From Schizochytrium sp. TIO01 (Eukaryota; Sar; Bigyra; Thraustochytrida; Thraustochytriidae): a stretch of DNA of 64,000 nucleotides. The translations under genes were made by a program, and so were the position numbers. The stretch lies in contig SMSO01000025.1 of assembly GCA_004764695.1 (NCBI GenBank), forward strand, positions 5,200,362-5,264,361. Reading direction: 5' to 3'. Position 1 is the stretch's first letter. Every line of letters starts with the position of its first letter. Under the pieces are notes generated by a model. That model saw nothing but the letters and a program-made list of their open reading frames with translations. It had not been told where the DNA came from and searched no databases. Shown piece by piece: positions 52,066 through 55,557 of the stretch.

Positions 52066-52764
52066 GCCCTACCATTGATCCCATCTGCTTTGTGGAAAAA
52101 AACACTGATATTAAGATTTCCCAATGTAATGTAAAGTATAAGTGGGTTGTGATACACAAAAGAAGCTTAAACGATTGTTTTGATTTAGACTCACTCAGGC
52201 CGAGGATATTACCTGATGCTAGGGTTTGATATTTTTGAAACAGATCATTTGCTCACTTTAAAACTCAACGTAGTTCTGTGGTTAGAGATGCAATTGATGA
52301 TATGATGTTTACACAGACTCGTCTCTTTCTTCATACCTATACCTCACCGAAGTTGAGGGTTGTAGACAGGTGTGACGCATGGTCATTCGTCTATGGCTAA
52401 GTATAACCCCCCATATAGATCACTTTTCCACATGTAAAACCCTTAAGGCAGTTCTTTCCTGTGAACACTAGTTCTGTAAAACATTCTCCATTTGTGTCCT
52501 AACAATTATAGCAGCATGCATCTTATCCTCCAAGCTTCGCAACTTAAGCTGTGTTCTTAAAGATAACTCTGGGAACAGTTCTCTGCCTTTCGTAGGGCGC
52601 TTATCATCGTCTTTCACAAACCTCGCAGACTCTTCGATACTCGTTCATTTCATAATTGATCCCTTTGTTACATTGGGCTAGTCCCATATAGTAGAGTCCT
52701 ACTGATGATCAATTGCTTTGGAAGGCTAGGTAAGAGGAACTCATAGGGCTCTGTAGGCGTGGAG
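52066..52764. other. Intergenic spacer
   Basis: 699-bp AT-rich spacer between two co-directional genes. No gene or repeat recognised. Confidence 0.5.
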
Positions 52765-55413
52765 ATGGTAATGTTCTTGGTCGTTTGGCCCTATTTCTGC
52801 TGTGGACAATTGCAAGAGCGATCATCCTGCATAGGCAAACCCTGGAGCTGGACGCGGCGGTCCGTCTCGGCTAGGCTGCGAGGCTTCGGTAGTGTCGCCG
52901 CTACAGCAGTGACGATGAATGTGGTCTTTGCAGCGCCCCGGGACGCACCGCAGACACCCATTTGGTATCGACGTGAGCTCTCTCTGGTGCGCAAGGTCTG
53001 TGAAAATCATGGTGTGGCGTTTTCCGCGCAAGCAGCAACAAGCAGAAGCGTGTCCTCACTTGTCGCTGGTACTCAAAGCAAAGGCGGAATTGTTCATTTC
53101 ATTGGGAGCGGTATATCTGGTGAAAGACTTGTACTAGAAACCGAGCGCGGCAAGGCACACGAGTTCGACCCTGAAACGCTTCGTGGTGCTGCGAGAGGCT
53201 TGGGCCCACCACCGCTGGTTTTTGTCAGCGCCCAGGGCATGGATTTTGCGCAGGATGCAGCAGCTGCCTTCATCAGGACTGGAATTCCGGTAGTTGTATG
53301 CCTCCGAAACCTGAACTTGGACTTCATAGAGACTTTTTATGAAGTGCTGTTTGCACAAGAGGGGGAAACTCCCAAAGTAAAGGTTATAGAGGTCGTAGCT
53401 GAAACTTGCAAGACGCTTGATGTGCCAATGGAAGTGGCAGAGATTATGGTGGCAGAAAATGGGGATGTACAAGAGGTGGAAATTGACTTGGAGCAAATAT
53501 TTTCGCAGAGAAATCACTTCAGGAGGTCTTCAAGTGTGCAGCCGCTGCCGACGGTGATGAACGCCCCTGGTAGCTTCTACGGACGCAGACAAGCCGTGAA
53601 TGAATTATGTAATGCATTATTAGACGCTCACAAAAACATGTTGCTCATTACAGGTTCACCGGGAACAGGAAAATCGGCACTGGCATCACATGTAGTGCAG
53701 TTTGCACTTGAAAGACGCCTCATGCGAGCTGTTTTCCACGTAGATTGCAAGCCACTTGACAGAAGGATACACCATCGCGCTCCGAGCTATGAGCAAGCTC
53801 GATTGCGCTGGACAATTGACATTGCAAATGCAATTGTTCGTGAGTTTGCTGAAAGGACAGGTCAAATCATGCCGCATAATCTGCTAAATGGGAACTTTAT
53901 TACAAGTGAAAACGATGAACGTCTTCAAATTTTGCGAAATAAGCGCAAAGAAGAGATCCTTTCGCAACTTCGGGCTGCTTTGTTAGACTTATTTTCGCTC
54001 GTTAACACACCAAATCGCGAAACAGTGCTCGTACTAGAGAACTGCGAGTCTGTGAGTGCTTGCAACTCTGTATTTATCGAATTTCTACACGAACTACTCA
54101 AATATCTGGACATTAAAATCGTATGTGTGTCGCGTTTTGCGTCACCCATTCTTGGATCTGGATTGCTTCCAGAGAGCATCACTCATGTTGTTCTCGAGGG
54201 AATGGATACATATGCCGCAACGCGATTGCTACAGCACGAGGCTGCACATCGATCGCTACAGCGAGATATAAGAAATGAAACTCTGGTGAAAACTGTTGAA
54301 CGAATGCAGAATGCACAAGTTTGCACGCCGCGTATGCTGCTTGAAGTGGCCCAACATGGCGTATCAAACTGCACGCGCACATACTTAGAAAATCTCTGTC
54401 TTAATGAGCAGGCAATGGTTTTCCAAAACTTTCGTGATATGTTGCGTATTCTTCTCCGCGATGAAGATGCCGATGCGGGGGTGATGTTTTGGCAAAGCTC
54501 GTGCAATTGGATTGGCACGCGCGCTGTAAACCCAGCTCGTACTACATGGACACGGTTTTCTGAAAAATTACGGGCACACTTTGTTGAAAAGGTTGGAGGA
54601 ACACGGCCTCTTAGTGAAGCATCAGCGGAGACCATTGCTGTTAGTTTAGATCGCATCAGCCCAAAGCTCCCTGATGGTCTTAACAACTTTGTGTCTATGT
54701 CACGCTTTGTAAAAGCGTTTTGGCCTTGGTATATATATGCTTTGCGAACCGTACAATTACATAAGAACCTATGGGCGCTCAGGGTAGGCAGTGCTCGCCT
54801 CCCTGTACTCTGGCTTTGTTCTCGTGAAGAATCTGAAAAGCGCCTGCGTCATGCTCCATCAGGTACTTTCATGCTTCGCTTGAGCGAGACTTACCCAGGT
54901 GCTATTGTGGCATCTCTTGTCGGGGATGTAGGTGGATATGGCGGTGGTTTGGGCAATGGCCACTGCTCTTCCATCTCAAGAAGTCCAAGGGATGGGCAAG
55001 GAGCAGGTCCATTTGTACACCCGAATGCTGGTACTCACGGGACACTTTTACTGCCGCCATATCAGCATGGACGGAAACCTCAGTATTATGTTATACAGTG
55101 CCGTAGTGACGGAACTTGCACCTTGGGAAATAGGAGATTTGCTTCATTGAAGCAAGCCATTTTGCAATTAGAAGCATTCAAGAGTGTATATGCGGGTACC
55201 CGTTCATCACCAGGCTCCGTCGCCATACAACAGCAGACACCAACCTCCCCACACCATTTGCAAACAGCTCGGACCTCTCTGACACCACCTGACCCCAAAA
55301 GCATCAGAAATTCACCGATGCGCCATGACCAAACAGGTACCGGTTGCACCATGACTTCAATGCTGCCCCCTGTTGCCCCTACACCATACCCTGAGCGCCC
55401 TGCACGCCAACAT

Positions 55414-55458
<45 letters not shown>

Positions 55459-55557
55459 CAACAACAAGGCCAGCCTCACCACCACCACCACCACCACCAC
55501 CACCACCATCACAACTACGAAGTAGTTCCTAAAAAATTAATTTTCTACAACACTTAA
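52765..55557 (+). CDS. CHAT-like – STAND NTPase – STAT-type linker–SH2 protein (930 aa)
   Basis: The first ATG is 52765; Met51 (52915), just before the first domain, is an equally plausible start. Residues 62–200 resemble a CHAT (caspase-like) domain: IVHFIGSG, LVFVSAQG, then AAFIRTGIPVVVCLRN and a FYEVLF helix. Both catalytic positions are replaced (HG to SG at 115; Cys to Gln157). A STAND-type NTPase follows: FYGRRQAVNEL, Walker A GSPGTGKS (297–304), Walker B VLVLEN (421–426) and CVSRF. Residues 640–680 (SMSRFVKAFWPWY…HKNLW) resemble the STAT linker, and 680–805 are an SH2 domain: GTFMLRLSE with Arg705 in the phosphotyrosine site, a Gly-rich insert (722–765), YYVIQCRSDG and FASLKQAI. A disordered tail carries Q17 and H12 runs. 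STAND proteins act as NTP-gated oligomerising switches. Phosphotyrosine control is inferred. Confidence 0.85.
55416..55512 (+). repeat. In-frame polyglutamine and polyhistidine codon repeats
   Basis: CAG codons, then CAA codons, encode 17 Gln; after GQP, CAC codons with one CAT encode 12 His. Both lie in the tail of the SH2 protein. Confidence 0.95.

Follow-up and report, generated by a model that had tools for sequence, protein, structure and literature searches.

A single reading frame in the window, by which we mean the whole 64,000-nucleotide stretch of Schizochytrium sp. TIO01 DNA analysed here, runs from a CHAT-like domain through a STAND-type P-loop NTPase to a STAT-type linker and SH2 domain, with a tail rich in Gln and His at the end, and we consider it very probable from the sequence that this architecture holds. 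The frame (52747–55557, + strand) is open for 936 codons and closes with a stop codon at 55555–55557; the longest open frame in 30 simulated windows, generated from the window’s own first-order base transitions (Markov-1), ran to 239 codons. The genome that we searched for relatives comprises 64 Mb in 37 contigs (G000), and the window is part of its contig C24. We lean towards reading the encoded protein as an NLR- or apoptosome-like STAND switch whose sensing end would be a STAT-type phosphotyrosine reader and whose output end would be a dead CHAT domain.

The preliminary description of this DNA had located the Walker A motif, the SH2 arginine and the stop codon exactly, and the FWPW motif lies where expected, from 54718, but its start codon probably needs revision. 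That start, at 52765, is the earliest ATG of the frame, whereas the ATG at 52915 coincides with the beginning of the CHAT-like domain. In the first 50 codons, a stretch of 150 bases only (residues 1–50, 52765–52914, + strand), G+C by codon position is 0.48/0.60/0.64, and position 1 is not the richest, as it is in each of the four parts that follow. Because of this difference, and because the CHAT-like domain begins there, we take ATG 52915 to be the probable start codon and the in-frame stretch upstream to be, probably, a noncoding 5' leader. Rfam gave no matches.

The CHAT-like, caspase-fold domain spans 52915–53439 (+ strand) and is recognized by profile comparison. Among the 25 Pfam families listed when the full window protein is searched (the last at E 9.2), CHAT does not appear, the window gene is not among the five matches of a genome-wide Pfam CHAT search, and the N-terminal segment alone reaches E 0.036 and 13.9 bits, below the cut-off of 24. 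In hhalign, the N-terminus of the window protein aligns to a CHAT profile built without it with a score of 58.2 and a probability of 95.6, against a best score of 23.0 among 200 shuffles; when 96 pieces of window open reading frames were compared with the same profile, the two high scores (55.4 and 42.2) came from pieces that overlap the CHAT-like N-terminus, and the next was 24.0. A profile made from the CHAT domains of the window protein and of two genes described below (C34 and C33) picks up 8tl0, a CHAT protein, at E 1.1e-12. We therefore regard the window N-terminus, on sequence grounds, as homologous to CHAT.

Homology of fold is not accompanied by the expected catalytic residues. According to the alignments, Ser115 (53107–53109, + strand) stands at the position of the histidine, in HFIGSG where others read like HFxGHG, and Gln157 (53233–53235, + strand) stands at the position of the cysteine, in VSAQGMD where others read like xACxS; we take these two positions in CHAT to be those of the catalytic residues. 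Histidine and cysteine are both present in all six CHAT comparators (L025, L026, C34, C33, C32 and C5, the C5 histidine being placed by eye) and are invariant across L025, L026, C34 and C33. A separase on contig C3 also has both (by eye), so that the window CHAT lacks a dyad found in all seven domains with which it was compared. Since Ser and Gln replace His and Cys, the window CHAT is probably a pseudo-protease without protease activity. The preliminary description had called this a caspase-like CHAT fold; the homology is borne out by hhalign and its controls, but the loss of both catalytic residues had been missed, and ‘caspase-like’ must for this reason refer to the fold of the window protein rather than to its activity.

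The core of the STAND-type P-loop NTPase lies at 53575–54096 (+ strand), where Pfam AAA_16 (E 2.8e-11, 271–444 of P0001) and AAA_22 (28.2 bits) both exceed their cut-offs. Walker A reads GSPGTGKS (53653–53676, + strand) and Walker B TVLVLE (54022–54039, + strand), the acidic residue being a Glu at 54037–54039 where the C34 paralogue has Asp. The Ser-Arg of a VSR motif, which we take to be sensor-1-like, follows Walker B at 54130–54135 (+ strand; by eye), and the GxP-like motif reads CTP (by eye). None of the STAND clade models passes its Pfam cut-off (nSTAND1 21.8 bits against 27.1, nSTAND3 20.6 against 27.2, NACHT 15.4 against 26.7); NPHP3_N is also below cut-off, and NB-ARC is not in the window protein’s Pfam list. 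A profile of the two NTPases (window and C34) matches just three PDB sequences at E ≤ 0.1, namely Hsp104 (0.025), Apaf-1 1z6t (0.038) and another heat-shock ATPase, and PADLOC and NCBIfam models gave generic P-loop-type matches only on the window protein and none on the C34 protein. We call the domain STAND-type because of its relatives, the order of the parts and a VSR motif that follows Walker B (by eye), and in this sense the P-loop STAND NTPase that had been proposed for the window stands.

A STAT-type linker, together with a stretch that aligns to the pre-linker region of STAT structures, occupies 54463–54804 (+ strand) and runs directly into the SH2 domain. Pfam STAT_linker stays below cut-off (E 0.065 in the full protein, 0.018 with the segment alone), and the assignment rests on STATs ranking first in three PDB sequence searches. 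In phmmer, residues 24–177 of the segment 54394–55233 align with Dictyostelium STATa (1uur) and residues 25–172 with STAT5A, both alignments spanning the entire linker into the SH2 domain. With the window linker–SH2 segment alone, the top 11 of 30 PDB matches are STATs (best E 0.0055); with a profile built from both this segment and its C34 counterpart, the best 11 of 151 are STATs, led by Dictyostelium STATa at E 1.3e-8 and including STAT5A at 7e-6; the third search, with the C34 segment, is given below. The STAT coiled coil and DNA-binding domain are missing, the CHAT–STAND part occupying their region, and neither STAT_alpha nor STAT_bind is among the 25 Pfam families listed. A genome search for STAT_bind gave no matches, but its control was equally silent, so that absence of this domain from the genome is not established.

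The SH2 domain extends over 54805–55179 (+ strand; end placed by eye) and exceeds the Pfam cut-off of 21 both in the full window protein (E 7.7e-6, 26.4 bits) and on the segment (29.8 bits). The expected residues of the phosphotyrosine pocket are kept: Arg687 (54823–54825, + strand), the basic residue at what we take to be alphaA2, Arg705 in FMLRLSE (54877–54879, + strand), presumably betaB5, and Ser707 (54883–54885), presumably betaB7. Histidine is common at betaD4 of SH2 domains, a position that in the window SH2 seems, by eye, to hold Tyr. A single-sequence AF2 model of the linker–SH2 pair has its elements in SH2 order but a pLDDT of 38, and Foldseek on this model found nothing at E ≤ 0.001. 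The C-terminal linker–SH2 of STAT type remains as first described, with SH2 over cut-off, STATs as the top PDB matches and the betaB5 Arg in place; in the HMM comparison suggested at that time, AAA_16, AAA_22 and SH2 lie over their cut-offs and CHAT, STAT_linker and NACHT below.

The SH2 domain is broken by a Gly-rich insert of 46 codons (54928–55065, + strand; 138 bases, phase 0), possibly a loop, possibly an in-frame intron. It starts with GTAGGT and ends with CAG, and was chosen by eye from 11 listed GT..AG pairs. Its removal raises the SH2 match from 33.0 to 41.7 bits and extends it from positions 7–43 to positions 7–72 of 77; its G+C by codon position (0.63/0.61/0.37) gives no argument against coding. 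The protein closes with a low-complexity tail (55201–55554, + strand) that has poly-Gln and poly-His and the C-terminal end NYEVVPKKLIFYNT. Within it, a poly-Gln and next a poly-His tract lie at 55417–55518, followed by NYEVVPKKLIFYNT, whose Tyr could be a phosphorylation site.

A second gene, a 1000-codon frame on contig C34 of the same genome (L014:2004-5006, + strand), encodes a CHAT domain with its dyad kept, a STAND-like NTPase, a STAT-like linker and an SH2 domain. Here CHAT, with 59.0 bits against a cut-off of 24, and SH2, with 23.3 bits against 21, are both over threshold, NPHP3_N, AAA_16 and NB-ARC are all below cut-off in the NTPase, and Pfam STAT_linker gives no match. The C-terminal part alone has STATs as the best 18 of its 87 PDB matches, with STATa at E 4.2e-9 (query 89–185 on 312–408), and its SH2 pocket holds Lys, Arg and Ser (by eye). 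The linker–SH2 parts of the window and C34 proteins align with a score of 41.5 (best of 200 shuffles, 21.7); in a control with 69 window pieces, one reached 41.6 against the C34 linker–SH2, over the window SH2, and the next 17.7. By blastp, the CHAT–STAND parts match at E 5e-7, covering CHAT and the P-loop. Because two very divergent genes of one genome share the module order, it is very unlikely that the layout is a gene-model artefact, and the three-module reading first made from the window (CHAT-like, STAND, STAT-type linker–SH2) recurs in an independent frame.

NLR-like receptors usually consist of a common core with exchanged extra modules, and four CHAT–STAND genes were seen in the genome (window, C34, C33 and C32) that differ in the modules added. 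The genome-wide CHAT search gave five matches, four of them over cut-off and the C34 gene included. The gene on contig C33 (L017:2816-7669, − strand), a frame of 1617 codons, has CHAT followed by a STAND-like NTPase that is below cut-off. Ahead of its CHAT lie EGF-like matches below cut-off and, by eye, numerous short repeats, a membrane span and a probable signal peptide; this gene possibly encodes a membrane receptor form of the CHAT–STAND switch. The gene on contig C32 (L011, − strand), a frame of 5063 codons, has CHAT followed by a STAND-like NTPase with NB-ARC just below cut-off; LRR-like sequence (LRR_1 below cut-off) lies upstream of its CHAT. NB-ARC shows up weakly, under its cut-off, in each of C34, C33 and C32. 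These three match one another by blastp at E 2e-21 to 9e-34 and the window protein at only 5e-7 to 6e-4 (C33 at 6e-4 over CHAT and P-loop, C32 at 2e-5 over the P-loop region only), which makes the window protein the most divergent of the four. A further CHAT gene, on contig C5 (L018:1265-3961, − strand; 898 codons), has the halves of its CHAT separated by a long low-complexity insert, coiled-coil-type matches below cut-off and no NTPase match.

SH2 domains are represented by at least five matches in four genes, a lower bound because six frames were read without introns: one that is SPT6-like (by eye), one that combines tandem SH2 domains with Cbl_N3, the window gene and C34. The tandem-SH2 protein, on contig C31 (L016:3933-5876, − strand), has Cbl_N3 just over cut-off and is also weakly like the STATa linker–SH2 (phmmer E 0.0028). 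Beyond this genome, a viral collection yielded no relatives among the pattern matches for the CHAT profile (73), the linker–SH2 pair (33) or the whole window protein (6); in bacterial and archaeal genomes, 2 of 215 pattern matches to the CHAT profile are relatives, and a STAND NTPase is not visible by eye in either frame of these two.

Kinases of the metazoan type seem not to be needed for STAT function. In the genome, six tyrosine-phosphatase matches were found, two of them strong (216 and 131 bits). The kinase motif HRDLAARN has no match in the genome, and a looser kinase pattern has one, HRDLKAAN. Dictyostelium kinases are set apart from metazoan-type ones, as tyrosine-kinase-like if we read the wording correctly, in passages of the Acanthamoeba genome paper (PMC4053784), and because they differ, at least as these passages present them, the missing HRDLAARN leaves tyrosine phosphorylation possible. 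Gating of the window protein by tyrosine phosphorylation, raised as a possibility in the preliminary description, would fit the pocket residues and the phosphatases that are present, but HRDLAARN was not found.

If the window protein is such a STAND switch, the NTPase would keep the chain closed in the resting cell. The chain would be freed once the SH2 domain binds phosphotyrosine, whether this sits on a receptor, a partner or, in STAT fashion, a sister molecule; nucleotide exchange would then lead to oligomerisation, by which the CHAT domains would be brought together. The CHAT end would signal by proteolysis in the C34 protein; in the window protein it would signal by acting as a scaffold or regulator. 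The window protein, with a CHAT that is probably dead, is most likely to be a scaffold, regulator or decoy. c-FLIP(L) works with caspase-8 in a comparable manner, and, guessing from the shared architecture, mixed assemblies in which the C34 protein is the protease carrier are possible. The pair of an intact (C34) and a dead (window) CHAT suggests a built-in regulator. More tentatively, and with clearly less confidence than we place in the switch as such, we propose that the two paralogues form one phosphotyrosine-gated apoptosome-like machine, in which C34 would be the active CHAT protease and the window protein a regulator with a dead CHAT, within a wider set of CHAT–STAND receptors with swapped sensors (SH2, LRR-like and an EGF-like membrane form). 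The window copy diverges most among the four genes and its GxP-like motif reads CTP (by eye), so that the window switch itself may have been weakened or lost.

These same features admit a reading without any switch, which we consider unlikely: the protein would be a STAT-derived adaptor whose linker–SH2 binds phosphotyrosine partners or dimerises as STATs do and whose CHAT–STAND part is a mere folded scaffold without nucleotide switching. The lost CHAT dyad, the degenerate GxP-like motif (by eye), the divergence of the window copy and the kept SH2 pocket would all suit an adaptor, but Walker A, the acidic Walker B residue and the sensor-1-like Arg are all retained, and the NTPase is the part best seen by Pfam (AAA_16, E 2.8e-11). 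The tandem SH2 of SPT6 partly reads other phosphorylated residues, and the window SH2 might likewise read another phosphorylated residue in place of phosphotyrosine or act as an intramolecular lock. Such a role would agree with the zero matches to HRDLAARN and the seeming Tyr at betaD4 (by eye), but it is improbable given the STAT-type pocket residues in both the window and C34 proteins and the tyrosine phosphatases of the genome; moreover, Dictyostelium kinases are distinguished from metazoan-type ones in parts of the Acanthamoeba genome paper (PMC4053784), so that STATs seem able to do without the latter.

The remaining alternatives concern the gene rather than the mechanism. The loss of both CHAT catalytic residues, the degenerate motifs and the low-complexity tail could mark a decaying paralogue of a C34-like gene, a pseudogene on the way; 936 stop-free codons, a G+C peak at codon position 1 in four of the frame's five parts, and the retained Walker A and SH2 pocket make this, to our minds, a shade less probable again, the more so as caspase-fold regulators without catalysis, such as c-FLIP and Raptor, are known to work. 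That two neighbouring genes were misread, or that unspliced introns gave a wrong gene model and falsely joined the modules, is very improbable: the 138-base in-frame GT..AG stretch would lend itself to such an error, but this possible intron lies inside the SH2 domain and separates no modules, no stop falls between modules, and the modules follow one another in the same way within one frame of the independent, divergent C34 gene, which lies on a different contig. We continue to lean towards the phosphotyrosine-reading STAND switch.

STAND switches with repeat sensors are known, and we know of no plant STAT-type linker–SH2 protein with CHAT or STAND. A literature search, with most subscription journals outside its scope, gave no paper combining ‘SH2 domain’, ‘CHAT domain’ and ‘STAND’, and no CHAT–STAND–STAT linker–SH2 fusion appeared in titles and the starts of abstracts, domain databases being likewise outside scope. 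With c-FLIP(L) and Raptor the window protein shares, by analogy from general biology, a caspase fold without the dyad; entries for caspase-8:c-FLIPL and for Raptor are among the VIA match rows. With Apaf-1 and NLR-type STAND proteins it shares the order effector–NTPase–sensor and a weak profile match (Apaf-1 1z6t, E 0.038), but unlike them it has no WD40, LRR or TPR in its Pfam list. Its CHAT matches the bacterial SAVED–CHAT protein 8tl0 in sequence and fold. In fungi, NLR sensors carry CHAT as an N-terminal module, according to excerpts of PMC12881547, and resemble the window protein in having a caspase-like CHAT at the N-terminus of an NLR-type sensor; as these excerpts describe them, they differ in that the window sensor is an SH2 with a STAT-type linker instead of repeats, and in that the window dyad is lost. 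Sponge TRADD-N/Death-like proteins have SH2 among several variable C-terminal domains (Kaur et al., 2021, PMC8195603) and so combine, like the window protein, a death-pathway module with a C-terminal SH2, but the text concerned (section 10) names no STAND–SH2 or STAT-type linker fusion for them. STAT-type linker–SH2 proteins exist in plants (Gao et al., 2004, as cited in part of PMC12287357), where they are like the window protein, so far as that description goes, in placing a STAT-type linker–SH2 outside animals and amoebae. STATs themselves (Dictyostelium STATa, STAT5/STAT6) have, as the window protein does, a linker followed directly by SH2, FW.W...LW before the SH2 and the pocket residues, but where STATs would have the coiled coil and the greater part of the DNA-binding domain, the window protein has CHAT–STAND. 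Because the only clear STAT-type linker–SH2 cases seen in this genome sit on two switches, those of the window and of C34, the linker–SH2 may also be a receptor part outside transcription, and a STAT-type phosphotyrosine reader serving as the sensor of a STAND protein would give tyrosine phosphorylation a direct route, within a single chain, to a caspase-like output in death or immunity.
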